64,000 nt of DNA from Bradyrhizobium sp. AZCC 2176 (lineage in GTDB: Bacteria; Pseudomonadota; Alphaproteobacteria; Rhizobiales; Xanthobacteraceae), in the NCBI RefSeq assembly GCF_036924645.1, contig NZ_JAZHRX010000001.1, positions 6,103,501-6,167,500 on the forward strand, in the 5' to 3' direction. The notes below the pieces were generated by a model. That model saw nothing but the letters and a program-made list of their open reading frames with translations. It was not told where the DNA came from and made no database searches. Every line of letters starts with the position of its first letter. Position 1 is the first letter of the stretch. Below are positions 3,876 through 54,420 of this stretch, in pieces. The translations under genes and the position numbers were made by a program.

Positions 3876-4087
3876 TAGGGATCGCGCCGTCTCCAGGCAA
3901 TCGCAGCTTAACGCCTTGAGCTGCCTTCGAGATGTTCAAGATGCTTGCTTTTTGCCCCTCGCCTCATGCTAGAACGCCGCCACCAGTTTCACGGGAGCGC
4001 CGTTTGCGCACCACCCAACGACGCCTGATCGCATTTCTTCTCCGCCGGATCACGGCCGTTGCCGAGGACCACTTCCAAGGATCATGA

Positions 4088-4735
4088 ATGCCTGAAGTTA
4101 TTTTCACCGGCCCCGCGGGCCGCCTCGAAGGCCGTTACCATCCGGCCAAGCAGAAGAACGCGCCGATCGCGATGATCCTGCATCCGCATCCGCAGTTTCA
4201 CGGCACGATGAATCACCAGATCGTCTACCAGTGCTACTACGCGTTTGCGCATCGCGGCTTCTCGGTGCTGCGATTCAATTTTCGCGGCGTCGGCCGCAGC
4301 CAGGGCTCGTTCGACCACGGCACCGGCGAATTGTCGGATGCGGCTTCCGCGCTCGACTGGGCGCAGACCATCAATCCCGAAGCGCGCGCCTGCTGGGTCG
4401 CGGGCTTCTCGTTCGGCGCCTGGATCGGCATGCAGCTTTTGATGCGCCGGCCCGAAGTCGAAGGTTTTATTTCGATCGCGCCGCCCGCCAACCTCTACGA
4501 CTTCTCCTTCCTTGCGCCCTGCCCGTCGTCAGGCCTTATCGTGCATGGCGAGAAGGATGCGGTGGTGCCGCCGAAGGACGTCAACACGCTGGTCGAAAAA
4601 CTGAAGACGCAAAAAGGCATCGTGATCGATCAGCAGATCATCCCCGGCGCCAACCATTTCTTCGACGGCAAGCTGGAGCCGCTGATGGAGACGGTGACCG
4701 GCTATCTCGACATGCGGCTCGCCAACGTCCGCTGA
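4088..4735 (+). CDS. Alpha/beta hydrolase (COG2945-like)
   Basis: Small cytosolic alpha/beta hydrolase of 215 residues; substrate unknown. It shows the COG2945 pattern: an early HPHPQFHGTMNH loop, the NFRGVGRSQG strand and turn, the nucleophile elbow GFSFGAW with S108, an acid at D157 in HGEKDAVVPP, and a histidine at H190 in PGANHFF. No signal peptide is present. It is transcribed divergently from the suf operon and stands alone; the next gene (GST) faces it. The ATG at 4088 is used because it follows CCAAGG at a suitable distance. Members of this family are usually annotated only as hydrolases, and nothing here refines that. Confidence 0.9.
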   Translation: MPEVIFTGPAGRLEGRYHPAKQKNAPIAMILHPHPQFHGTMNHQIVYQCYYAFAHRGFSVLRFNFRGVGRSQGSFDHGTGELSDAASALDWAQTINPEARACWVAGFSFGAWIGMQLLMRRPEVEGFISIAPPANLYDFSFLAPCPSSGLIVHGEKDAVVPPKDVNTLVEKLKTQKGIVIDQQIIPGANHFFDGKLEPLMETVTGYLDMRLANVR

Positions 4736-8152: not shown

Positions 8153-9400
8153 ATGGACAACAAGACGCCAGAGGGAGATGCGTTAGCCAGACCGCACAAG
8201 CCGGAGCGGGTTGCGCTCAACGTGCTGGCGCTGTGCTTTACGCTGGCGCTGCTCGGCCGCGGCCTCGGCGAGAGCTTTACGGTTTTCCTCAAACCGATCT
8301 CTGAGAATTTCGGCTGGGACCGCGCGGCAGTGGTCTCGGTCTATTCGCTGACCTGGCTCGCCGGCGGGCTGACGGCGCCGGTGGTCGGCCGGCTATTCGA
8401 TCGCTACGGCCCTCGCACCGTCTATTCGCTGGGACTGCTGCTGCTCGGCGGCGCGTTCCTGGCGGCCTCGCAGGCGCAGGCGCTGTGGCAATTCCAGTTG
8501 AGCGTTGGCCTCTGCGTCGGGATCGGCATCGCCTTCATCGGCAACGTGCCGAATTCGATTCTGCTCGGCCGCTGGTTCGGCCCGCGGTTGCCGACGGCGA
8601 TGGCGATCGTCTATTCCGCAACCGGCGCAGGCGTTTTGGTCCTTCTGCCGGCGTCGCAAATCCTGATCGACCAGGTCGGATGGCGCGGCGCCCACCAGAT
8701 CTTCGGCATCATTGCGCTGTGCTTGTTGGTGCCGCTGTTGCTGCTACCATGGCGGCTGTTCTCAACCGGCTCGCCGCACATCGCCAAACAGGCCGACCCT
8801 GGTTTCGTCGATGAGGGCTGGACGCTGGTCAGCGCGATGCGCCACCACGCGTTCTGGGCGCTGTTTTCAACCTTCTTCTTCACGGCAATCGGCATGTACG
8901 CGATCTCGGCGCAGATCGTCGCCTACCTTATCGACGCCGGCTTCCCGCCGCTGCAGGCCGCAACCGCCTGGGGCTTTTCCGGCGTCGTGCTGCTGTTCGG
9001 CATGCTGGGGGTGACGCAGCTCGATGCGATGATCGGACGAAGACCGTCAGTGCTGCTCAGCTACGCCATCTCGATCGTCGGCATCATTCTGCTGTGGCTG
9101 CTGCAGTACTATCCGAACTTCTGGCTGCTCGCGGCTTTCGTGGTGACCTTCGGCAGCATGATCGGTTCGCGCGGCCCGCTGATCACGGCGACCGCGATGA
9201 AGATCTTCCGCGGCGAGCGGGTCGGCACCATCTACGGCACGATCTCGATCGGCAGCGGTCTTGGCTCAGGGCTCGGCGCCTGGGCCGGCGGCCTGATCCA
9301 CGACTGGACCCACAGCTATAATCCCGTGATCGCCTTCGCGCTGGTGGCCGTCGTGCTCGGAATGATCCCGTTCCTCGTCGTGCCGGCGCTGCGGCGCTAG
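8153..9400 (+). CDS. MFS transporter (12 TM, monocarboxylate/oxalate-type)
   Basis: Inner-membrane major facilitator protein of about 415 residues with twelve hydrophobic segments. The TM2-TM3 loop reads GRLFDRYGPRTVY, the MFS signature, and the second half contains the paired LDAMIGRRPSVLL loop. The overall pattern resembles the oxalate/formate and monocarboxylate porter group, but the substrate cannot be read from sequence. I place the start at the ATG 8153, 69 bases after tyrS; an in-frame TTG at 8117 would add twelve residues. Neither has a strong ribosome site, so the start is uncertain. Its stop touches the stop of the convergent LysR gene without a gap. Confidence 0.88.
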   Translation: MDNKTPEGDALARPHKPERVALNVLALCFTLALLGRGLGESFTVFLKPISENFGWDRAAVVSVYSLTWLAGGLTAPVVGRLFDRYGPRTVYSLGLLLLGGAFLAASQAQALWQFQLSVGLCVGIGIAFIGNVPNSILLGRWFGPRLPTAMAIVYSATGAGVLVLLPASQILIDQVGWRGAHQIFGIIALCLLVPLLLLPWRLFSTGSPHIAKQADPGFVDEGWTLVSAMRHHAFWALFSTFFFTAIGMYAISAQIVAYLIDAGFPPLQAATAWGFSGVVLLFGMLGVTQLDAMIGRRPSVLLSYAISIVGIILLWLLQYYPNFWLLAAFVVTFGSMIGSRGPLITATAMKIFRGERVGTIYGTISIGSGLGSGLGAWAGGLIHDWTHSYNPVIAFALVAVVLGMIPFLVVPALRR

Positions 9401-10318
9401 CTAGCTAAGCCCCGGCCTGATTGCCTGGACCCTGCTTGTTGCCGCCATCGTCTCGAGCAGCCAACTCTTGAATGAGAGCATCGCGGGCGACGGTCGCCGG
9501 GAATGCAACGAGGTAATCCAATAATCGCCGAGTCCCACTTCGATCTTGAATGGACGTACGAGTCGACGTTTTCGGACCTCATCCTGAAACAATGCCCCCG
9601 GCAACAACGCAACGCCGAAGCCGCGCGCTGCTGCGCTGGCGATCGTGATCGATGAATCGAACACCATTCCCTTGAGAACCGGACTCTGCAGTCCCGCCGC
9701 CGCAAACCAGCGCGGCCATTCCTCCTGTCGGTAGGAACGCAGCAGCACCTCGCGCTTGAGATCGGCCGGCCGGCTAAGCCGGCGAGCCAGTGCAGGCGCG
9801 CAGTACGCCGTAAATGGCGCCCCCATCAAGTGGGTCGCCTCGGTGCCATGCCAGAGCCCATCGCCAAACCTGATCGCGTAATCGAGGCCCTCACCGGCGA
9901 TATCGATACGATTGTTGTTGGTGAACAGGCGCAAATCGATCCGCGGATACGCGTTTCTGAAATCGTCAAGCCGCGGCAGCAGCCATCCCGAAGCGAAGGT
10001 ACCGACCACGCCGACCGTGATGACGTCCTGGTAGCGACCATCTTCAAAACGGTTGAGCGTTTCGCTGAGCCGGCCAAAGGCCTCGACGATGCTTGGTAGC
10101 AGCGATTGTCCTTCATCGGTGAGCGCGACGCCGCGCGGCAGCCGGCGAAACAACTGTACGCCAAGCCGGTCCTCCAGCACTTTCACATGCTGACTGACCG
10201 CTGCCTGCGTGACGCGAAGTTCCAGGCCGGCACGGGTGAAACTCAAGTGGCGCGCTGTTGCTTCAAAGGCCCGCAGTGCGTTGAGCGGAAGGTGCGAAAG
10301 CTTCATCCGGCGTCGCAT
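9401..10318 (-). CDS. ampR: AmpR-like LysR-family regulator
   Basis: LysR-type regulator of 305 residues, divergent from a class A beta-lactamase in the classical ampR-bla layout. The N-terminal helix-turn-helix reads PLNALRAFEATARHLSFTRA, and VTQAAVSQHVKVLEDRLG is the recognition part. The effector domain keeps features I associate with AmpR proteins from Enterobacteria: VVGTFASGWLLP, NNRIDIAGEGLDYAIRFGDG, LLRSYRQEEW and VFDSSITIASAA. Known AmpR proteins are held in check by UDP-MurNAc-pentapeptide and activated by anhydro-muropeptides; that is family knowledge, not visible here. AGGGA six bases before the ATG supports the start at 10318. GcvA-like regulators are the nearest alternative. Confidence 0.9.
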   Translation of the reverse strand: MRRRMKLSHLPLNALRAFEATARHLSFTRAGLELRVTQAAVSQHVKVLEDRLGVQLFRRLPRGVALTDEGQSLLPSIVEAFGRLSETLNRFEDGRYQDVITVGVVGTFASGWLLPRLDDFRNAYPRIDLRLFTNNNRIDIAGEGLDYAIRFGDGLWHGTEATHLMGAPFTAYCAPALARRLSRPADLKREVLLRSYRQEEWPRWFAAAGLQSPVLKGMVFDSSITIASAAARGFGVALLPGALFQDEVRKRRLVRPFKIEVGLGDYWITSLHSRRPSPAMLSFKSWLLETMAATSRVQAIRPGLS

Positions 10319-10363
10319 TACTTGTCCCTGGTTTTTCTTATGCCTGCCCGCAGAACTGATCGT

Positions 10364-10392
10364 TTGTCAAGACAGCAGCCGATGGGCACTTT
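10364..10392 (+). promoter_or_regulatory. Candidate beta-lactamase promoter
   Basis: TTGTCA at 10364-10369 and CACTTT at 10387-10392 are 17 bases apart in the 101-base ampR-bla gap. The surrounding CGTTTGTCAA recalls enterobacterial ampC promoters (from memory). An imperfect TTCT-N13-AGAA repeat at 10335-10355 could be the LysR-type site. A strong AAGGAGGG at 10405-10412 serves the GTG start of the lactamase. Confidence 0.35.
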
Positions 10393-10419
10393 CCTGCTCG
10401 CAGCAAGGAGGGATTCGTA

Positions 10420-11316
10420 GTGATTACCAGAAGACAGTTCCAGCTTGGGTTCGGCACAGTGCTGATAGCGACTGCTTTGAGCGCGCGGATAAAAGCCGTG
10501 CGCGCATCAACCGCAGATCAACGACTGATCGATGAGATCAAGCGCCTGGAGAGCGAAAGTGGCGGCCGGCTGGGCGTTTGTGTCCTCGAGACAGCAACGG
10601 ATGCCCGCCATGTCCATCGGGGCGACGAGCGGTTTCCGATGTGCAGCACCTTCAAAGTGCTCGCAGCCGCGGCGACTTTGGCGCGGATAGATGCAGGCAA
10701 GGAACAGTTGACACGGCGCATAACCTTCGACGCGTCCGCACTCGTCGTGAACTCACCCGTAACTGAAAAGCGTGTCGGCGGCGATGGCATGACGCTCGCT
10801 GAGATTTGCGATGCGGCGCTAACTCGGAGCGACAATACGGCCGGCAATCTGCTGCTCGCCAGCATTGGCGGACCTCCGGGACTGACGGCCTTCGCACGAA
10901 GCCTGGGTGACCAGGTCACGCGGCTGGACCGGGATGAGCCCTCGCTCAACGAGGCTTTGCCCGACGATCCCCGCGATACTACGACACCGAATGCGATGGC
11001 TTCGAATTTGCAGGCCCTCATTCTTGGGACGACAGCGCTGTCGGCTGCATCGCGTGAGCAACTGACGGCATGGTTGATCGCCAACAAAACCGGCGACATG
11101 CGACTGCGTGCCGGTTTTGCAAAACGCTGGCGTATCGGAGACAAGACCGGCACAGGCGGACGAGGCACGAACAACCACGTCGCCGTGGTCTGGCCACCCA
11201 GCGCCGCCCCCATGGTGATTGCGGTCTATCTGACGGGCGCTACTGTTTCTTTCGAGCAACAGAATGCTATCGTGGCTTCGGTCGCGCGCGCGGTCTCGGC
11301 GACAACATCCGGCTAG
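10420..11316 (+). CDS. Class A beta-lactamase, Tat-type signal
   Basis: Serine beta-lactamase of 298 residues, probably periplasmic. All class A motifs are present: S76-T-F-K (Ambler S70-K73), S137-D-N (S130), E173 in DEPSLN (E166) and K242-T-G (K234). The signal sequence starts with the twin-arginine stretch TRRQFQLGF, which points to Tat export. A cysteine sits just before the active serine (Ambler 69), as in some carbapenemases, but position 238 is glycine, so the carbapenemase disulfide cannot form. The GTG start is set by AAGGAGGG at seven bases. Expression is likely under the divergent AmpR-like regulator. The actual substrate range is unknown. Confidence 0.95.
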   Translation: MITRRQFQLGFGTVLIATALSARIKAVRASTADQRLIDEIKRLESESGGRLGVCVLETATDARHVHRGDERFPMCSTFKVLAAAATLARIDAGKEQLTRRITFDASALVVNSPVTEKRVGGDGMTLAEICDAALTRSDNTAGNLLLASIGGPPGLTAFARSLGDQVTRLDRDEPSLNEALPDDPRDTTTPNAMASNLQALILGTTALSAASREQLTAWLIANKTGDMRLRAGFAKRWRIGDKTGTGGRGTNNHVAVVWPPSAAPMVIAVYLTGATVSFEQQNAIVASVARAVSATTSG

Positions 11317-46679: not shown

Positions 46680-47116
46680 GTACTCCAGTCACCATCATCA
46701 TGATCGAGGACGATGAGGGCCATGCCCGCCTGATCGAGCGGAATATTCGCCGATCCGGTGTCAACAATGAGATCATGCCGTTCACCAGTGGTACAGCCGC
46801 CCTGAATTACCTGTTTGGCGAGGACGGGACGGGTTTGGACCACAAGGGCAGCGCGCTCCTGATCCTGCTCGATCTCAATTTGCCCGACACGACCGGCATC
46901 GACATTCTGAAGCGGGTCAAGGAAAACAAATATCTGAAGACCACGCCGGTGGTGGTGCTGACCACGACCGACGATTCTCATGAGATCAAGCGCTGCTACG
47001 ACCTCGGTTGCAACGTCTACATTACCAAGCCCGTGAACTACGAAAGCTTCGCCAACGCCATTCGCCAGCTTGGTCTGTTCTTCTCCGTCATTCAGATTCC
47101 TCCGGCCGCCACATGA
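46676..47116 (+). CDS. Single-domain response regulator (RcpA-like)
   Basis: Receiver protein of 146 residues with no output domain. The acidic pocket is E11-D12-D13, the phosphoacceptor D66 lies in LLDLNLPDTTG, the threonine switch in VVVLTTTDD, and the lysine in VYITKPVNYES. The long insertion before D66 (GEDGTGLDHKG) is typical of RcpA/Rcp1-like receivers used next to phytochrome- or CHASE3-type kinases. Four-base ATGA overlaps with the kinase before it and the kinase after it indicate a tightly coupled three-gene operon, and it probably relays phosphate between them. Confidence 0.93.
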   Translation: MSTPVTIIMIEDDEGHARLIERNIRRSGVNNEIMPFTSGTAALNYLFGEDGTGLDHKGSALLILLDLNLPDTTGIDILKRVKENKYLKTTPVVVLTTTDDSHEIKRCYDLGCNVYITKPVNYESFANAIRQLGLFFSVIQIPPAAT

Positions 47117-48207
47117 AACCAGCAACGCCGACACTGCTGTACATCGACGACGACGCCGGCCTCGCCCGGCTGGTCGACCGCGGCCTGACGCGAGCAGGCT
47201 TCAAGGTCGTCCACGCGGCGGGCGGTGAGCAAGGGCTGGCGCGGCTGGCGCAAGGCGGCATCGATGTGGTTGCGCTCGACCAATACATGCCGGGGCTCGA
47301 CGGCCTCGAAACGCTGGAACGGATCATGGCGATTGCGGACGCCCCGCCCGTGGTGTTCGTCACGGCCGCGCAGGATTCGGCGATCGCCGTCACGGCGCTG
47401 AAGGCCGGTGCCGCCGACTATCTGGTCAAGGATACACAGGGCGATTTCATTCCGCTGCTCCAGGTCGCCGTCAACGGCGCCCTGCGGCAGGCCGAGCTTC
47501 AGCGCGCGCGCGACGAAGCCGAAGCCGAGGTCCACGCCTCGCGCGACCGCTATGCGGCGCTTGCCGCCGAACGCGAAGTGCTGTTGCGCGAAGTCAACCA
47601 CCGCGTCGGCAACTCCTTGCAGATCATCGCCTCGCTGCTGCATCTGCAGGCCAATTCGACGACGCAGGACGACGTCAAGGCAGCGCTGACCAATGCAATG
47701 GGCCGCGTCGCCGCGGTCGCCCAGGTCCATCGGCGTCTCTACACCTCGCATGATCTCAAGAGCGTGTTGCTGAACCAGTATCTCGAAGCCCTGCTGGAAG
47801 ACCTCCGGCGTTCGGCCGAAGGCAACAGGATGTCGCGGCTGACGCTCAAGGCCGAGCCGATCGAGATCGACCCCGACCGCGCGGTCGCGATCGGCATCAT
47901 CGTCAACGAGCTGGTGATGAACGCCGTCAAATACGCCTATCCCGACGGCGCCGGCCCGATTCACGTCGAGCTGAAGCCCGACGGCGAGGACCTGGTGGTC
48001 GCGATTGCGGACGACGGCGTGGGTCTCAACGCCAAGGCCGATCCGCGCTCCACCGGCATGGGACAACGCATCGTGAGCGCAATGGCCGCCAAGCTGGACG
48101 CCAGTGCCGAGCGCGATCCGAACCATCACGGCACCAGGATCGTGCTGCGCTTCCGCCGCATCCCGGCAGCACCGCCGAAATCGACCAACGCCGCCGCCGC
48201 GGGTTAG
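47113..48207 (+). CDS. Response regulator-histidine kinase hybrid (REC-HisKA_2)
   Basis: Cytosolic 364-residue protein. An N-terminal receiver (D56 in ALDQYMPGLDG) is followed by a short coiled coil and a HisKA_2-type kinase: H163 in LREVNHRVGNSLQIIASLL, then an HATPase with NELVMNAVKYAYP, IADDGVGL and GMGQRIVSAMA. HisKA_2/HWE kinases are the type that feeds the PhyR general stress response in alphaproteobacteria (family knowledge); no phyR or ecfG is in the window. It starts inside the stop codon of the preceding receiver gene. The last four bases overlap the stop of the convergent iclR gene. Confidence 0.93.
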   Translation: MKPATPTLLYIDDDAGLARLVDRGLTRAGFKVVHAAGGEQGLARLAQGGIDVVALDQYMPGLDGLETLERIMAIADAPPVVFVTAAQDSAIAVTALKAGAADYLVKDTQGDFIPLLQVAVNGALRQAELQRARDEAEAEVHASRDRYAALAAEREVLLREVNHRVGNSLQIIASLLHLQANSTTQDDVKAALTNAMGRVAAVAQVHRRLYTSHDLKSVLLNQYLEALLEDLRRSAEGNRMSRLTLKAEPIEIDPDRAVAIGIIVNELVMNAVKYAYPDGAGPIHVELKPDGEDLVVAIADDGVGLNAKADPRSTGMGQRIVSAMAAKLDASAERDPNHHGTRIVLRFRRIPAAPPKSTNAAAAG

Positions 48208-49004
48208 CTGCGCGGCGTCGCCGCCTCGATCGCACGCGCAGCCGCGACAAGAACGTCGGCCACCTCGATCGCGCGACGCGGGCTCAGCCTGTTTCGGATG
48301 GCGGAGAGCGTAATCGCGGCGGCAGGCTGGCCGTCCGGCGTCCGGATCCAGGCCGAAAGCGACTTCGTCCCCTGCACGAGCCCGACGTCACGCAGATTGT
48401 AGCCCCTGCGGCGCGCGAGCTGGATCTGGCCAAGTACGGTGGCCGTATCGGTCCGATAGGCGGCAAAGCGGGCTTCGTTGGCCAGCACGATCTTGCGCGC
48501 CTCAGGGACCGGCATGGCGGCCAGGATTGCGACCCCTGCGCTGCTGACGCCCAGCGGACGCCGCACACCGACCTCGATCGACAACACCTGGATCGGATAG
48601 CTGCCGATGCGGCGCGCCACGCACAAGGTGTCGAGCCCGGTGCGCAAGGTTAGAAACAGGGTGTCGCCGAGTTGCGCCGACACCGCCGAGAGATGCGGCT
48701 CGGCTGCAATCAGTAGTGGCGAACGCGAGGGACGCGCCAGCGCCAGCTCCGGCACCTGGCGGCCGACAACGTAATTTCCCGTCCGCTCGCTGCGCTCGAC
48801 AATTCCCTCCTCGATCAGCACATGCACGATGCGATGTACCGTCGGACGAGCGAGCGACGTCGCCCGCACGACTTCCGCGAGAGGTACGCCTCTTTCTCCA
48901 CCAATCGCAAGCGTGCGCAGCACGGCTACCGCGCGGCGGATCGCCTGCCCGCCCTGCCGCGGCCCACGCCCGCGCGCCTTTAACCGACCGTTTGTCATAT
49001 GCAT
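48204..49004 (-). CDS. IclR-family transcriptional regulator
   Basis: Regulator of 266 residues, divergent from the catabolic operon at 49170. The N-terminal winged helix includes RRAVAVLRTLAIGGE and the recognition segment ATSLARPTVHRIVHVL. The effector domain starts near AEPHLSAVSAQLGDTLFL and contains RIGSYPIQVLSIEVG, RRPLGVSSAGVAILAAM and the late LSAWIRTPDGQPAAAITLSA. IclR proteins typically repress or activate an adjacent aromatic or C2 catabolic operon and are released by a pathway metabolite. Two palindromes directly upstream (49012-49046) are fitting operators. The start could be the ATG at 49004 or at 48998; both follow GCGGACA. Confidence 0.92.
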   Translation of the reverse strand: MHMTNGRLKARGRGPRQGGQAIRRAVAVLRTLAIGGERGVPLAEVVRATSLARPTVHRIVHVLIEEGIVERSERTGNYVVGRQVPELALARPSRSPLLIAAEPHLSAVSAQLGDTLFLTLRTGLDTLCVARRIGSYPIQVLSIEVGVRRPLGVSSAGVAILAAMPVPEARKIVLANEARFAAYRTDTATVLGQIQLARRRGYNLRDVGLVQGTKSLSAWIRTPDGQPAAAITLSAIRNRLSPRRAIEVADVLVAAARAIEAATPRS

Positions 49005-49007
49005 TGT

Positions 49008-49055
49008 CCGCTGTCCACAATGTGGACAAAAACACCACAATTTGGTCGACAGCGG
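49008..49055. promoter_or_regulatory. Paired IclR-type operators
   Basis: Site 1, TGTCCACAATGTGGACA at 49012-49028, is a perfect palindrome with 8-base arms. Site 2, ACCACAATTTGGT at 49034-49046, keeps the core, and the cores CCACAATGTGG and CCACAATTTGG are exactly 20 bases apart. CCGCTGTC (49008-49015) and its complement (49048-49055) enclose both. The block sits just before the iclR start and 115 bases before the divergent operon. Confidence 0.7.
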
Positions 49056-49169
49056 AAGGGCTGAGCGCAAGATCGGGCGCGCGGAACAATAAAGGCGCGC
49101 ATGCCGCTCGGACGGGGCTCGCGCAAAACAAAAAGGTAGCGGCGATCCGCCGCTTTTCGGGAGAATGCG

Positions 49170-50147
49170 ATGAAATTTTTCGCGATCGCAGGCGTCGCTG
49201 TATCGGTACTATTTGCGGCTTCGTTGAGCACGCCCGCCGAGGCCCAGCAATGGCCGGCGCGGCAGGTTAAGCTGATCGTCCCCTATCCGGCAGGCGGCAA
49301 TGTCGACAGCGCGGCGCGCGTCATTGCCGACAGGCTGCAGGCCAAGTTGGGCCAGCCATTCATCGTGGAAAACAAGGCCGGCGCCGGCGGCCTGATTGCC
49401 GGCGAGGCGTTCGCGAAAATGCCTCCCGACGGCTACGCCTTGTTCGTCGGCGCCAACGGCCCGGTGCTGTTCGCGCCCGAGATCGCAAAGCGCGAGGCCT
49501 ACAATTGGAAGCGGGATTTCGTCCCGATCACCTCGATCACGATGACGCCGCTGGTGCTCGAAGTGCATCCCTCGGTGCAGGTCAAGGATCTGAAGGAATT
49601 CATCGAGCTCGCCCGCCGCGATCCCGGCAAGCTGACGATGGCCTCGCCCGGCCAGGGCACCACCAACCATCTACTCAGCGAACTGATGCAATCGGCGCTG
49701 GGCCTGCAGTGGCTGACGGTGCATTACCGCGGCAACGCCCCTGCGCTCAACGACCTGATCGGCGGACAGGTGCAATTTGCGCTGGATCAGATCTCGGTCG
49801 GTCTGCCTTCCATCAAAAGCGGCATGCTGCGCGCGCTCGCCGTCACTGGCAGCCACCGTGCCTCCTGGCTTCCGGATGTGCCGACCTTCACTGAACTCGG
49901 CTACAAGGAATTTGACGGCCAGACCTTCACCGGCCTGTTCGCGCCCGCGCGTACGCCGGCAGAGATCGTGACCAAGCTCCACGACACCCTCGCGGAGATC
50001 CTGAAAGATCCCGCCATCGTCGAGAAGTTCAACGCGCTCGGCGCCGAGGCCGTATCGATGACGCCGGCGGACTTCACCAGCTACCTCGAGCGCGAGGACG
50101 CCAAGTGGATTCCCGTCGTCCGCAAGGCGAACATCAAGGCTGACTGA
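49170..50147 (+). CDS. Tripartite tricarboxylate transporter receptor (Bug family)
   Basis: Periplasmic binding protein of 325 residues. Signal peptide to about residue 25 (STPAEAQQ). The mature start WPARQVKLIVPYPAGGNVDS, NKAGAGGLIAGEAF, LTMASPGQGTTNHL and GLFAPARTPAEIV are Bug/TctC signatures. Such receptors bind carboxylates and some aromatic acids; the membrane subunits TctA and TctB are not encoded here, which is frequent for this family. As the first gene of the IclR-controlled operon it is likely to capture the pathway substrate or a related acid. GGGAG lies seven bases before the ATG, and the next gene begins three bases after its stop. Confidence 0.94.
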   Translation: MKFFAIAGVAVSVLFAASLSTPAEAQQWPARQVKLIVPYPAGGNVDSAARVIADRLQAKLGQPFIVENKAGAGGLIAGEAFAKMPPDGYALFVGANGPVLFAPEIAKREAYNWKRDFVPITSITMTPLVLEVHPSVQVKDLKEFIELARRDPGKLTMASPGQGTTNHLLSELMQSALGLQWLTVHYRGNAPALNDLIGGQVQFALDQISVGLPSIKSGMLRALAVTGSHRASWLPDVPTFTELGYKEFDGQTFTGLFAPARTPAEIVTKLHDTLAEILKDPAIVEKFNALGAEAVSMTPADFTSYLEREDAKWIPVVRKANIKAD

Positions 50148-50150
50148 TCC

Positions 50151-50768
50151 ATGCAGATCGATCCCGGCGATCTCGGCGCGGAGCGGATTTACCGGCTGAT
50201 GACCGGCATCGTGGTGCCGCGTCCGATCGCCTGGGTGACGAGCCTGTCGCGCAAGGGCGTGCTCAACCTCGCCCCGTTCTCTGCCTTCACCTTCGTCTCG
50301 CAGAAGCCGCCGATGCTGGCCATTAGCGTCGGCCGCAAGGGCCCCGACTACAAGGATACGGCGCACAACATCCTCGACACCGAGGAGTATGTCATCCACA
50401 TCGCCGACACGCCGCTGATGGCTGCGGTGCATGACAGTTCGGTCGAGCATCCGCCCGAAGTCAGCGAGGTCGAAGAGCTCAACCTGGAAACGCGTCCCAG
50501 CGATCGCATCAAGGTGCCCCGGCTTGCCGCCGCGCCGGTCGCGATGGAATGCGTGTTTCGGCAATGTCTCGAATTCGGCGAGGCGCGCAGCCGGCTCATC
50601 GTCGGCGAGGTCGTGATGTTCCACATCCGCGACGGTCTCGTGAACAACGGCAAGGTCGAGACCGAGACGCTCGACCCGATCGCCCGCATCGGTGGGCCCC
50701 GCTACGCCCGCCTCGGCGAGATCGTGACGCTGCGCGGCGTCTTCCAAACCCCGAAATCGACCGATTAG
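50151..50768 (+). CDS. Flavin reductase-like protein (FMN-binding split barrel)
   Basis: Soluble 205-residue protein with the flavin reductase/NADH:FMN oxidoreductase fold. VVPRPIAWVTSLSRKGVLNL and LAPFSAFTFVSQKPPMLAI are the FMN-binding parts, with the conserved S/T and the NLAPFS motif. Proteins of this group either supply reduced flavin to a two-component monooxygenase or act alone on flavin; no oxygenase component is within the operon. It starts three bases after the receptor gene, hence one transcript. The product could instead be an FMN-binding protein of other function. Confidence 0.92.
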   Translation: MQIDPGDLGAERIYRLMTGIVVPRPIAWVTSLSRKGVLNLAPFSAFTFVSQKPPMLAISVGRKGPDYKDTAHNILDTEEYVIHIADTPLMAAVHDSSVEHPPEVSEVEELNLETRPSDRIKVPRLAAAPVAMECVFRQCLEFGEARSRLIVGEVVMFHIRDGLVNNGKVETETLDPIARIGGPRYARLGEIVTLRGVFQTPKSTD

Positions 50769-50841
50769 CGGTGGCAGCAATCCGTAGCGCGCTTGCTGAC
50801 GCCGGACGCAGATCGAAGCAGAATTCTCGAAGAGGACGACA

Positions 50842-51702
50842 ATGCGACTGGTGAGCTATCTGGTGGAAGGAGAGCCGCGCTACGGCGCGGCAGTCGACAG
50901 CGGCGTCGTCGATCTGACGAAGCGGATCGGCCGCGACTTCTCCGACGTGAAGGCGCTGATCGCGGCCAACGCGCTTGACGATGCCCGCGAGGCGGTGGCC
51001 GGACAGAAGCCGGATTACGCACTCAAAGACCTGGACGTGCTCCCGCCGGTCCTGGCGCCGGAAAAGCTGTGGTGCATCGGCGTCAACTACAAAGACCGCA
51101 ACGCCGAGTACAAGGACAATTCGGACCTGCCGAAATATCCGAGCCTGTTTGTCCGCAACCCTTCTTCGATCGTCGGCTCGGGTCAGCCGATCGAGAAGCC
51201 GAAAATTTCCGAACAGCTCGACTATGAGGGCGAACTCGTGATCGTGATCGGCAAGGAAGGACGGCACATCCCCCGCGAGCGCGCCTGGGACCACATCTTC
51301 GGCATGACGCTGTGCAACGAAGGCAGCGTTCGCGACTGGCTGCACCACGGCAAGTTCAACGTCACCCAGGGCAAGAATTTCGACCGCTCGGGCAGCATCG
51401 GGCCATGGATCGTCACATCGGACGAATGCAATCCGCGCGGACCTCATGACATTATTACCCGCGTCAATGGCGAGGTGCGCCAGAGCGACTCTACCGAGCG
51501 GCTGATGTTCCCGTTCGATTTCCTGATCGCCTACCTTTCCGCGTTTGCCACCTTGAAACCCGGCGACATGATCGCGACCGGCACCCCGACCGGAGCCGGC
51601 GCCCGGTTCACGCCGCCGCGCTGGCTCAAGCCAGGCGACGTCGTCGAGGTGGAATCCAAAAGCATCGGCATCCTTCGCAACACCGTGGCGGAGGAGCGGT
51701 AG
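50842..51702 (+). CDS. Fumarylacetoacetate hydrolase-family protein
   Basis: FAH-superfamily enzyme of 286 residues, with a small N-terminal domain to about residue 65 and the catalytic fold from KLWCIGVNYKDRNAEY. The metal ligands are the acidic cluster in DYEGELVIVIGKEGR and the later CNEGSVRDW region; ATGTPTGAGARF closes the site. Related enzymes hydrolyse acylpyruvates, isomerise or decarboxylate ring-cleavage products (HpaG-like), or act on ureidoglycolate. Next to a HpaH-like hydratase, a decarboxylase or isomerase role in a meta-cleavage pathway is the natural guess. AGAGGACGAC upstream serves the ATG; the gap to the preceding gene is 73 bases, to the next only three. Confidence 0.93.
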   Translation: MRLVSYLVEGEPRYGAAVDSGVVDLTKRIGRDFSDVKALIAANALDDAREAVAGQKPDYALKDLDVLPPVLAPEKLWCIGVNYKDRNAEYKDNSDLPKYPSLFVRNPSSIVGSGQPIEKPKISEQLDYEGELVIVIGKEGRHIPRERAWDHIFGMTLCNEGSVRDWLHHGKFNVTQGKNFDRSGSIGPWIVTSDECNPRGPHDIITRVNGEVRQSDSTERLMFPFDFLIAYLSAFATLKPGDMIATGTPTGAGARFTPPRWLKPGDVVEVESKSIGILRNTVAEER

Positions 51703-51705
51703 CCG

Positions 51706-52509
51706 ATGCTCGATCAACCAACCGTCGAACGGCTGGCGCAGCGCCTCGATGACGCCGAACGCAGCAAGTCGCTGATACCAGCGTTCACGCGCGAATATCC
51801 TGACCTCACGATCGAGGACGCCTACGCCATTCAGCGCGCCTGGACCAAACTGCAGCTCTCCCGCGGCCGCGTCGTCAAGGGGCACAAGATTGGCTTGACC
51901 TCGAAAGCGATGCAGAATGCCGTCGGCATTTCCGAGCCGGATTACGGCGTACTGTTCGCGGACATGTTCTACCCCGACGCGTCGCCGATCCCGTTCGACC
52001 GCTTCCACGCGCCGCGCATCGAGGTCGAACTGGCGTTCGTGCTGAAGACGCCGTTGAAGGGCCCGGATTGCACGCTGTTCGACGTTCTCAATGCCACCGA
52101 CTACGTCACGCCGGCGCTCGAAATCCTGGAGACGAGGATGCATCGCGTCGATCCCGTGACCAAGGCGCCACGCAAGGTGATGGACACGATTTCCGACAAT
52201 GCCGCGAATGCGGCGCTGGTCGTCGGCGGCAGGCCTATCCGCCCGCTCGATTTCGACCTGCGCTGGATCGGTGCCCTGTTGTTTCGCAACGGCCAGATCG
52301 AGGAGACCGGGATCGCCGCCGGTGTCCTCAACCATCCCGCCAACGGCGTGGCCTGGCTCGCCGACCGGCTGGCCGCCCAGGGCGAGTACCTCGACGCTGG
52401 CGAAGTGGTTTTGGCCGGATCGTTTACGCGCCCGGTCGACATCATCAAGGGCGACACGTTTCACGCCGATTACGGCCAGTTCGGATCGGTGTCCTGCCAG
52501 TTCGTCTGA
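51706..52509 (+). CDS. 2-oxo-hept-4-ene-1,7-dioate hydratase-like enzyme
   Basis: Hydratase/decarboxylase-family protein of 267 residues, FAH fold. [58 protein letters not shown] and [17 protein letters not shown] match HpaH and related 2-oxo-alkenoate hydratases (MhpD, DmpE); the paired glutamates in IEVELAFV bind the metal. These enzymes add water to the 2-oxo-enoate formed after ring cleavage. The sequence is closest in pattern to the homoprotocatechuate-type HpaH, but the true substrate depends on an upstream pathway that is not in this window. Confidence 0.92.
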
Positions 52510-52538
52510 ACAAGAAGCGTCCCGGAAGGAGAGCAGAG

Positions 52539-52922
52539 ATGACAAGGCGCAAGAGCATTCATATCGGCGAGTTCAAGCACGCCAATCCCATTCCGAACGC
52601 CTGCCGCATCGGCAATCTCCTGATGTCCGGTGTCATCCTCGGTCGCGACCCCGCGACCGGCAAGATGCCGGAAAAGATCGAAGATCAGTGCGCCAACATG
52701 TTCGGCCACATGAAGGCGATCGTGGAGGCCGGCGGCGGGACCACCGACGACATTATCAGGATGACGGTATGGCTGCAGGACCGCAGTCAGCGTGCGCCTG
52801 TCAATACCGAGTGGCTGAAGATGTTTCCCGACGAGCATTCGCGGCCTGCCCGTCACGCGCTGCAGATGGACATGGAGAACGGCGCGCTCGTGCAATGCGA
52901 TTTCACCGCCGTGATCGGCTGA
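52539..52922 (+). CDS. RidA-family protein (possible aminomuconate-type deaminase)
   Basis: Small 127-residue RidA/YjgF-family protein. The order GNLLMSGVILGRDPATGKMP, QCANMFGHMKAIVEAGGGTT, DDIIRMTVWLQDRSQR, and the C-terminal MDMENGALVQCDFTAVIG match the family. The arginine usually found in the substrate clamp is replaced within SRPARHALQM, so imine hydrolysis cannot be assumed. In operons for 2-aminophenol or aminobenzoate degradation, RidA relatives act as 2-aminomuconate deaminases (known for Pseudomonas), which fits the hydratase and FAH neighbours. AAGGAGAG five to six bases before the ATG at 52539 decides the start; longer open frames over this region belong to other frames. Confidence 0.9.
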   Translation: MTRRKSIHIGEFKHANPIPNACRIGNLLMSGVILGRDPATGKMPEKIEDQCANMFGHMKAIVEAGGGTTDDIIRMTVWLQDRSQRAPVNTEWLKMFPDEHSRPARHALQMDMENGALVQCDFTAVIG

Positions 52923-52945
52923 CACGACCGAATAAGGAGCCTGAC

Positions 52946-53821
52946 ATGCCGGCCTACCTCCCGTTTGATCCGAACCCGCGCCGCCCTTCAAGGCTGCCGC
53001 CGCCGAAGAGCATCGACAGCCAGTTTCACGTGCTCGGTCCGCTGGAGAAATATCCGGTGCGGCCGGGCGCTGCCTACCAGATGCCGACCGCGACCTGGGA
53101 AGCGGCGCTGCGCGTCCACAAGGCGCTCGGCATCGAGCGCGGCATCATCGTGCAGACCACGACCTATGGCGCCGATCACTCCGTGGTTCTCGACGGCCTC
53201 GTGGCGATGGGGCCGAACTACCGCGGTTGCGCCAACGCGCTGGTGTTTGCCGAAGCCGACGACGCCTATCTCGCCAAACTTCACGACGCCGGCGTGCGCG
53301 GGGCCCGCTTCAGCTTCCGGCAGGAACTGGGCGCAGTGCTCTCGGACAAGGATTTTGCGCGCGCGATCGCGAAAATTCGCGAACTCGGCTGGTACGCAAA
53401 AATCCAGCCGGAGAAGGACGGCATCGTCTCCAGCGTCGCCAAATACGAAAACCTCGACGTGCCCGTGCTGATCGACCACATGGCCCGCCCTGACCCTATG
53501 CGCGGCAAGGAAGATCCGAATTTGCAAAAGATGCTGGAGCTTCTAGCGAAGGGCAATTTCTGGGTAATGCTGTCGCTTGGGGAAAAGACCTCGAAGAAGG
53601 GCCCGCCCTGGGACGACGTCATTCCGATCGCGCGCGCCTATATCGAAGCCGCCCCCGACCGCTGCGTGTGGGCCAGCGACTGGCCGCACCCGGTCTCGGT
53701 GGTGCAGCCGCCCAATGACGCCGACTTGCTCGAACTGCTCTATCGGTACGTCGTCGACGAGGCGGAACTGCAAAAGATTCTGGTGACCAACCCGGCCAAG
53801 CTGTTCGGCTTCAAGGACTAA
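52946..53821 (+). CDS. Amidohydrolase-family protein, 2-pyrone-4,6-dicarboxylate hydrolase-like
   Basis: TIM-barrel amidohydrolase of 291 residues. SIDSQFHVLGP stands where the HxH metal motif occurs, here as QFH, so one of the two usual histidines is missing, as in LigI-type lactonases that need no metal. Later segments are IDHMARPDPMRGKEDP and WASDWPHPVSV, the latter with the catalytic aspartate. LigI hydrolyses 2-pyrone-4,6-dicarboxylate from gallate or protocatechuate 4,5-cleavage, and a lactone- or dicarboxylate-like substrate fits this operon. AAGGAG six bases before the ATG 52946 fixes the start. Last gene of the operon. Confidence 0.9.
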   Translation: MPAYLPFDPNPRRPSRLPPPKSIDSQFHVLGPLEKYPVRPGAAYQMPTATWEAALRVHKALGIERGIIVQTTTYGADHSVVLDGLVAMGPNYRGCANALVFAEADDAYLAKLHDAGVRGARFSFRQELGAVLSDKDFARAIAKIRELGWYAKIQPEKDGIVSSVAKYENLDVPVLIDHMARPDPMRGKEDPNLQKMLELLAKGNFWVMLSLGEKTSKKGPPWDDVIPIARAYIEAAPDRCVWASDWPHPVSVVQPPNDADLLELLYRYVVDEAELQKILVTNPAKLFGFKD

Positions 53822-54033: not shown

Positions 54034-54420
54034 CTATTGAGGTACCGCCTCAACGGCGAAGGAGCGGAACTTCGCCAGACTGTTGCGGAGCGGCACGAGG
54101 TCTTTGAAGGCCGCTGAATCGCGATACGCTTGGATTTTCTCAACGGTATCCCATTGGATGATAACAACGCGTGGCTTCGGCGGCTCTCCTTCGATTGTCG
54201 TGGTTTTACCTCCAACGGCAAGGAACTTGCCGCCAGCCGCTTTGATGGCGGCCTGAGCCTTTGGCGCGTAGTCCTTCACGTAGGTCTCTGTGTTCGAGGG
54301 CTCGATTTCAACGACTTGGTATACTGGCGGCCTGGCCTGAGCATGAAGTCTCTCAACCGCGACTGCACCGAGTCCTAAGCCCGCCAGCATCGCCAATGTC
54401 ACTGAATGGTGAGTCTTCAT
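54034..54420 (-). CDS. DUF1330 protein, exported
   Basis: Protein of 128 residues with a signal peptide or anchor (LAMLAGLGLGAVAVERLHAQ) and a C-terminal DUF1330 domain of the dimeric alpha-beta barrel type: YQVVEIEPSNTETYVKDYAP, GGKFLAVGGKTTTIEGEPP and IIQWDTVEKIQAYRDSAAF. The fold is common to small cofactor- or ligand-binding proteins; function unknown. AGGGAGAAACGTC ahead of the ATG gives a normal start. It is convergent with the catabolic operon across a 212-base gap. Exported versions with this layout are frequent and multi-copy in Bradyrhizobium (from memory). Confidence 0.88.
   Translation of the reverse strand: MKTHHSVTLAMLAGLGLGAVAVERLHAQARPPVYQVVEIEPSNTETYVKDYAPKAQAAIKAAGGKFLAVGGKTTTIEGEPPKPRVVIIQWDTVEKIQAYRDSAAFKDLVPLRNSLAKFRSFAVEAVPQ

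Follow-up and report, generated by a model that had tools for sequence, protein, structure and literature searches.

A Bradyrhizobium operon that joins a LigI-like hydrolase and a RidA-family protein to a homoprotocatechuate-type lower arm, possibly for the uptake and degradation of an already cyclic acid

Among the described systems close to the locus studied here is the HpaG-HpaH-HpaI lower arm of the homoprotocatechuate pathway. Its steps have been characterised in another bacterium, and its triacid is reported to isomerise only slowly without an HpaF-type isomerase (PMC12718150, 2025). RidA proteins, COG3618 proteins and IclR regulators have been linked to aromatic metabolism in general, in papers whose available text does not name the present operon (PMC6449761, PMC8222616), and no description of this gene set appeared among the open-licence papers listed by our searches. 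The set lies in a 64 kb stretch of Bradyrhizobium sp. AZCC 2176 (NZ_JAZHRX010000001.1, positions 6,103,501 to 6,167,500; hereafter the window), whose 7.1 Mb genome is a single contig. Here, an IclR gene stands opposite a tight plus-strand operon coding for a receptor of the tripartite tricarboxylate transporter (TTT) type (TctC), a flavin-reductase-like protein (FR), an FAH-family protein, HpaH, a RidA-family protein and a LigI-like amidohydrolase (AH), and all seven genes were confirmed (Table 1). We see about an even chance that the operon, under the control of IclR, serves the uptake and degradation of an acid that enters the cell in cyclic form (of the 2-pyrone or 2-pyridone type) or already ring-cleaved, and that no oxygenase belongs to it.

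An earlier note, made from the letters of the window, had remarked that these genes look like the lower arm of a ring-cleavage pathway. Our comparisons support a lower arm of the meta-cleavage type, and specifically the homoprotocatechuate arm. The window HpaH matches a solved HpaH chain over its full length (E 9e-119) and scores above the curated TIGR02312 cut-off. The host genome (G000) also carries a homoprotocatechuate cluster at about 92.6-100.1 kb of the contig, with an HpaI-like aldolase, HpaH, an HpaF-type isomerase, HpaE, HpaD and a single FAH. In this cluster HpaH, HpaE and HpaD score 445, 847 and 443 bits, and the HpaI-like aldolase (172 bits) and the HpaF-type isomerase (99 vs 215 bits) fall under their cut-offs. 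The FAH and HpaH of our operon are 57% and 63% identical to their counterparts there. By this paralogy, FAH is most likely the decarboxylase of the triacid, and HpaH the hydratase of the C7 diacid. HpaD, HpaE and HpaF are all absent from the window operon, the host copies lying in the separate cluster (G000:C1, about 96-99 kb), and HpaI is absent from it as well.

We then compared the locus with other loci (L numbers) and genomes (G numbers), counting a gene in a locus when it stood above a set identity and 40% coverage and dropping weaker matches. HpaI-type genes are part of the operon in L066, L087, L111, L113, L153 and L155-L158. In L111, AH, RidA and TctC face FR, IclR, HpaG-N, HpaG-C, HpaH, HpaI, TctB, TctA and an aldehyde dehydrogenase. 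Cut-offs are exceeded there by HpaG-C, HpaH and HpaI and narrowly missed by HpaG-N (223.6 vs 228.65). Rhodovulum sp. PH10 (L066, a stretch also represented by G009) has genes for an HpaI-type aldolase and an aldehyde dehydrogenase after FAH and HpaH, and a Sulfitobacter plasmid holds IclR and a complete TctABC together with FR, FAH, HpaH, RidA, AH and an aldolase in that order. Within the family of G875 an AH orthologue occurs in 7 of 200 genomes. In each of the seven, FR and IclR point away from a TctC-RidA-AH-FAH-HpaH run, which in six continues with an HpaI-type gene. A Variovorax plasmid (L088) repeats the arrangement of that family, followed by an enoyl-CoA-hydratase-type gene and no HpaI. 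Linkage with HpaG, HpaH and HpaI thus connects AH and RidA with the lower arm for homoprotocatechuate, and we regard the lower-arm assignment as well supported.

The gene order is also kept among closer relatives. FR-FAH-HpaH-RidA-AH follow one another in 26 of the 29 loci found with RidA, the exceptions being L066, L068 and L069, and in L054 HpaH is split across two frames. This arrangement goes beyond chance. The window RidA is up to 98% identical to Bradyrhizobium proteins. In the 149 family genomes compared, we counted RidA (at least 60% identity) 16 times, spread over 15 genomes; AH (at least 63%) accompanied it every time, within about 180 bases. All seven genes show dN/dS values of 0.03-0.30 against nine relatives (eight for TctC), and the operon genes are under purifying selection. 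The earlier note had asked for a search for the shared order with a linked dioxygenase, and had named scattered housekeeping copies as one finding that would undo a single-pathway reading. The genes are not scattered copies; the search showed the shared order, and no oxygenase was found inside any form of the operon. As separate observations, the locus of G081 has only RidA and AH; in L119 (G064, of the window's own genus; 9397-10813) HpaH is apparently missing between FAH and RidA, with FAH, RidA and AH retained; and L066 carries, besides its complete AH, what appears to be a second AH reduced to a remnant by an internal deletion, between HpaH and HpaI (3980-4267). MFS transporter and old-yellow-enzyme type genes come after AH in L066.

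We found no oxygenase inside the operon in the 26 complete loci or in the more distant operons. For the flanks we sampled the annotation of same-strand genes downstream of AH (L059 and L064 not among them), of ten neighbours, of 14 distinct proteins around L117, L118 and L100 (twenty profile queries) and of a set of further records, that of L147 carrying no annotation. The only oxygenase beside the operon among the neighbours profiled is a generic luciferase-like monooxygenase (MsnO8/PRK10508 type) in L117, convergent to the operon on the opposite strand; a gene of the same cluster sits there in L101, L118 and L119. L061-L065 have an additional gene that separates FR from FAH. We considered it for the role of the missing oxygenase and set it aside, as it looks like an MFS-type transporter when read from its sequence, without a profile. 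The module apparently never included an oxygenase. The earlier note was right that the operon has no ring-cleaving dioxygenase. Its wider statement that no dioxygenase is present holds for the operon itself and not for the genome, where a complete homoprotocatechuate dioxygenase cluster lies elsewhere. Its view that the operon "lacks its oxygenase" does not stand: since we found none inside any form of the operon, local loss is rejected.

AH and RidA would be the entry enzymes. The closest solved protein to AH is LigI, the 2-pyrone-4,6-dicarboxylate hydrolase (E 2.9e-43), and its sources give the name 2-pyrone-4,6-dicarboxylate lactonase or hydrolase to many of the AH relatives in a list of 120 out of 1184. 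After removal of rows below 85% query coverage and below 55% (AH) or 48% (RidA) identity, AH residues Q26, H28, H178, R181 and D245 are invariant in 57 of 57 aligned rows, some of which are the same gene in overlapping loci. H28, H178, R181 and D245 align with H33, H180, R183 and D248 of LigI, which we take to be its catalytic positions; these residue statements rest on sequence alignment. In place of the first His of the HxH motif (LigI H31) all 57 rows have Gln. Together with changes at three positions which we take to be the carboxylate contacts of LigI (R130, Y156 and R217), this suggests that AH is probably a LigI-kind hydrolase with another substrate. AH is not a 4-sulfomuconolactone hydrolase by score, being far under that cut-off (NF042924, 181 vs 500 bits). 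RidA is not of the archetypal kind (TIGR00004, 45 vs 106 bits). It keeps Arg105 in 79 of 79 aligned rows, and a survey of the Rid family links the conserved arginine (Arg105 in TdcF) to imine hydrolysis (PMC4433059). The tight pairing of AH with RidA points to an enamine, or a compound in need of tautomerisation, as what AH produces.

We propose the following route. TctC would deliver the acid, and AH, judging by its family and conserved residues, would open the ring hydrolytically, as LigI does with 2-pyrone-4,6-dicarboxylate. RidA would then hydrolyse the enamine nitrogen of the product, or may tautomerise it in place of the absent HpaF. The HpaG-like FAH would decarboxylate and isomerise the triacid (5-carboxymethyl-2-hydroxymuconate or its keto form), a step supported by paralogy, and HpaH would hydrate the C7 diacid, which is well supported. 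Finally, an HpaI-type aldolase, which lies within the operon in many relatives and elsewhere in the host genome, would release pyruvate and succinic semialdehyde; here the support comes from linkage in relatives. FR would be an accessory flavoprotein, and AH and RidA would stand where HpaD, HpaE and HpaF would otherwise be. Gene content, conservation, selection, the paralogy of the lower arm, its linkage with HpaI-type genes and the lack of recognisable canonical entry enzymes in many carriers are observed directly; we infer all catalytic steps of the operon proteins themselves, the transport substrate and the regulation by IclR. A narrower version, offered tentatively and in our view unlikely to hold in full, is an undescribed oxygen-independent route whose substrate would be a tricarboxylic acid of the pyrone or pyridone kind (2-pyrone-4,6-dicarboxylate extended to its carboxymethyl homologue, or the lactam of that homologue), with AH and RidA acting as a two-step enamidase whose product would enter the homoprotocatechuate lower arm.

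Several observations weigh against the proposed operon function. FAH is under the HpaG cut-off (TIGR02303, 155 vs 276 bits), although the 57% identical FAH of the host's own HpaD cluster is under it too (182 bits). Among the four linked HpaI-type genes profiled (L066, L087, L111 and L113), L111 alone passes the HpaI cut-off (368.8 bits); L066, L087 and L113 score 318, 146 and 341 bits. AH has E127 or another residue for LigI R130, Q154 for Y156 and K214 for R217. Opening of a pyrone does not need RidA, so a pure lactone model gives RidA no role, and no version of the scheme accounts for FR. AH and RidA also occur apart from the lower arm: one genome (L068/L102) has both with no lower arm nearby, and a second, plasmid-borne cluster type pairs them with other genes. 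In L089 (7134-13295) this cluster comprises a DHO_dh-like protein, a DUF6282 protein, an HpaI-like aldolase, a cupin, succinate-semialdehyde dehydrogenase, RidA and AH, and L147 has homologues of the first four of these plus RidA and AH; in neither does the stretch compared hold an FAH or HpaH orthologue beside AH, RidA and the HpaI-like aldolase. Lastly, HpaD is over its cut-off in 15 of 20 carrier genomes, so joint use with the canonical pathway is possible in most of them.

The HpaD count also favours another explanation, in which the operon assists the ordinary homoprotocatechuate pathway as an auxiliary arm: HpaD and HpaE would come from the distant cluster, and AH and RidA would only rescue by-products, for example lactonised or aminated ones. 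The host's own cluster is complete, and G064 has apparently lost the HpaH of the operon. Of the 15 HpaD carriers, 12 have their best HpaI-type match no more than about 11 kb from HpaD, outside the operon and under the HpaI cut-off. In those genomes the canonical cluster may therefore lend the aldolase. Against this explanation, HpaD stays under the cut-off with either HpaD model in the other five carriers (G009, G075, G098, G697 and G875), and HpaE, which marks the canonical pathway, passes its cut-off in 6 of the 15 carriers tested and not in nine; many of these genomes have the aldolase in the operon. G009, which is 99% complete, gave no match to HpaD or LigB, and none to HpaE at E 1e-150, and G098 (82% complete) gave no LigB match and no HpaD over the cut-off. 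Over all 20 carriers, a second HpaD type is over its cut-off in two and LigB-type dioxygenases are found in ten. HpaI is in the operon in 7 of the 9 carriers without HpaE vs 1 of the 6 with it (one-sided Fisher p 0.035, a test that ignores relatedness, with counts that include G081, whose locus is RidA and AH only, and G075 and G098, whose HpaI-type genes lie elsewhere), and the association of an operon HpaI with the absence of HpaE is suggestive. As nine of 15 carriers are without HpaE and seven of these have an operon HpaI, the module looks autonomous. It appears able to run without the canonical entry, and may act as a helper where HpaD is present. We judge the auxiliary-arm explanation unlikely, though it has to be reckoned with, and we rejected an ordinary homoprotocatechuate operon as the full label, HpaD, HpaE and HpaF being absent and HpaE passing in so few carriers.

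The conserved arginine of RidA would also suit a lower arm for an aminated aromatic (a possibility raised by the earlier note) such as an aminohydroxyphenylacetate, with an unlinked extradiol dioxygenase giving an aminomuconate that RidA deaminates; 2-aminomuconate deaminases are found among RidA proteins (PMC6742747). In G697 (L139, 1-20000) we observed a tandem of two clusters that include regulators of the IclR-like kind and genes of the amidohydrolase type. The first, which shares its contig with the operon at a distance of about 20 kb, holds a LigB-type pair, an aldehyde dehydrogenase, hydratase-like genes and its own RidA of 170 residues, and from this content we take it to resemble a 2-aminophenol-type meta-cleavage pathway. 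However, the operon RidA showed no significant BLASTP similarity to that protein, the operon has no dioxygenase and none was detectable in G009 with three models, and such a pathway leaves no place for a LigI-like hydrolase. We therefore consider the aminated-aromatic explanation improbable.

FR raises another explanation. RutF supplies reduced flavin to RutA, and FR may likewise feed an unlinked flavin monooxygenase that opens a heterocycle. Its nearest solved chains are nitrilotriacetate monooxygenase component B (E 6e-44), a likeness in favour of such a role, and a 2-nitrobenzoate nitroreductase (E 3e-34). The luciferase-like gene convergent to the operon in L117, with its same-cluster genes in L101, L118 and L119, could be the partner, but it is of a generic type and on the opposite strand, and the test for a two-component flavin monooxygenase found no oxygenase component among the operon members. 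FR is also the least constant member of the operon. G009 has no FR match at E 1e-30, the G081 locus has no FR orthologue (the best FR-like genes are 38-39% identical), and G034, G070 and G110 have FR at 66-68% identity without the operon. On an Aminobacter plasmid (L092, 4687-10609) an HpaB-like oxygenase, a separate annotated flavin reductase, the FR relative and polysaccharide-deacetylase-like and ArgE-like hydrolases form a cluster that could be for heterocycle degradation; the oxygenase there has the other flavin reductase beside it, which also speaks against a supply role for FR. We give this explanation little credence. The earlier note had pointed to a flavin reductase without a partner oxygenase; loss of such a partner is a weak explanation for the least constant gene of the set. 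As a side observation, the window FR is 97% identical to the FR of L047 and L051 and 76-79% to that of L041, L046 and L054, while the other operon proteins of the latter three are 90-97% identical to those of the window (FAH 84-85%), which suggests replacement of FR by recombination. That AH itself is a ring-cleaving oxygenase, like the Pfam01979 amidohydrolase KpiC reported to cleave 3,4-dihydroxypyridine oxidatively (PMC7356986), is very improbable, because AH is of another family (PF04909, LigI-like) and its Gln at the first His of HxH leaves the usual metal site incomplete.

Table 1. Genes of the operon, its divergent regulator and the putative operator, in window coordinates.
Feature	Position	Strand	Evidence
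IclR-family regulator, divergent	49004..48204 (48204..49004)	-	PF01614 E 7.9e-15; PF09339 E 1.7e-12
Palindrome TGTCCACA-a-TGTGGACA, adjoins IclR start; probable IclR operator	49012..49028	.	single window site; kept in relatives
TctC, TTT receptor	49170..50147	+	PF03401 E 2.2e-68
FR, flavin-reductase-like protein	50151..50768	+	PF01613 E 3.3e-21
FAH-family protein, probable HpaG-type triacid decarboxylase/isomerase	50842..51702	+	PF01557 E 5.9e-67
HpaH, 2-oxohept-4-ene-1,7-dioate hydratase	51706..52509	+	TIGR02312 431.5 bits, cut-off 351.5
RidA-family protein, probable enamine/imine hydrolase or tautomerase	52539..52922	+	PF01042 E 7e-12
AH, LigI-like amidohydrolase, probable pyrone/lactone or lactam hydrolase	52946..53821	+	PF04909 E 2.6e-45

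The family calls of the earlier note for all seven genes came back with the same domains (Table 1), and its single operon with short gaps facing an IclR gene is borne out by the gene calls and by the shared order in relatives. From TctC to AH the gaps are 3, 73, 3, 29 and 23 nt. Of the region it gave, the end and the genes stand; its start at 48008 falls within a separate upstream open reading frame (47008-48207, sensor-kinase-like by eye). The mechanical reading frame of IclR reaches back to a TTG at 49070, and an ATG at 49004 or 48998 is the likelier start. At 54034-54420 we noticed a DUF1330 gene that runs towards the operon from the other strand; its product seems, by eye, to have a signal peptide. 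It was rejected as an operon member, a similar-sized gene occurring there only in L041 and L047 of the 29 loci (matched by position and length, not by profile).

An IclR orthologue faces the operon in all 26 complete loci, and its best NCBIfam matches are far under their cut-offs. The palindrome next to the IclR start is the only such site in the window at up to two mismatches, where 0.02 would be expected by chance. In relatives it is kept with symmetric changes, for example as TGTCCATAATATGGACA. Loci L041-L067, the 27 that were found through RidA and include an IclR gene, show the core pattern in 23 cases and a close variant in three (L042, L049 and L062); L064 has neither. It is absent from the distant operons, in which IclR is 39 to 47% identical (L087, L088, L098, L111, L113 and L153-L158). 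IclR probably binds the palindrome. For uptake, no TctAB lies beside the window TctC; L087 and L111 have linked TctA and TctB genes. The TTT receptors Bug69 and Bug27 are reported to bind quinolinate (PMC11452294), so a cyclic nitrogen-containing acid is a reasonable ligand for TctC.

Downstream of AH, molybdopterin oxidoreductase and amidase genes were seen in L057 (11337-15245), L059, L060 (about 1.4 kb away) and L067, profiled in L057 only. They hint at an amide or oxide precursor of the substrate.

When lower-arm genes have no oxygenase with them, one readily takes them for broken or incomplete pathways. The present set is kept in Alphaproteobacteria, in the betaproteobacterium Variovorax and in other genomes of the same phylum, and it leads to a testable prediction, namely a cyclic acid that bacteria of soil and sea would import and break down. 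AH is often annotated as 2-pyrone-4,6-dicarboxylate lactonase, and our comparison suggests a different substrate. If the narrower route for a pyrone or pyridone tricarboxylic acid is true, such compounds might arise where other organisms or plants cleave the ring of homoprotocatechuate or DOPA and release the product, and the module would scavenge aromatics that others have half degraded. Stizolobinic acid was considered as the substrate and not retained, our search finding no title on its bacterial breakdown; DOPA-derived pyrones are kept only as a possible source.

Set beside known systems, the operon can be compared first with the homoprotocatechuate HpaG-HpaH-HpaI arm. It shares the FAH and HpaH paralogues and, in relatives, HpaI, HpaG-N and HpaG-C beside AH and RidA; it differs in having AH, RidA and FR in place of HpaD, HpaE and HpaF, and in its TTT receptor and IclR gene. 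AH shares with LigI (cog3618) the PF04909 family and the aligned His, Arg and Asp residues, whereas it has Gln at the first His of HxH and other residues at the three presumed carboxylate contacts. AmnE, the 2-aminomuconate deaminase of the 2-aminophenol pathway, is likewise a RidA-family protein in a meta-cleavage lower pathway, but our operon has no 2-aminophenol dioxygenase and its RidA is far under the archetypal RidA cut-off. The LumW-LumY-LumX tail of riboflavin breakdown runs from a pyrone hydrolase through a hydratase to a retro-aldolase and ends in pyruvate, as proposed here; there, however, LumW is a cobalt-dependent 40 kDa hydrolase, LumY is a cupin, and the catechol dioxygenase LumE makes the pyrone (PMC12746152). 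The L089/L147 cluster type, with AH, RidA, a cupin and an HpaI-like aldolase, echoes this case. The enamidase of anaerobic nicotinate breakdown turns a cyclic enamide into ammonia and an aldehyde acid (PMC7356986), the same hydrolysis and ammonia release that AH and RidA would carry out in two steps. It is a single protein of Pfam01979 with another substrate, so the analogy is functional only. Taken together, the riboflavin tail and the enamidase are precedents that make an oxygen-free entry plausible.

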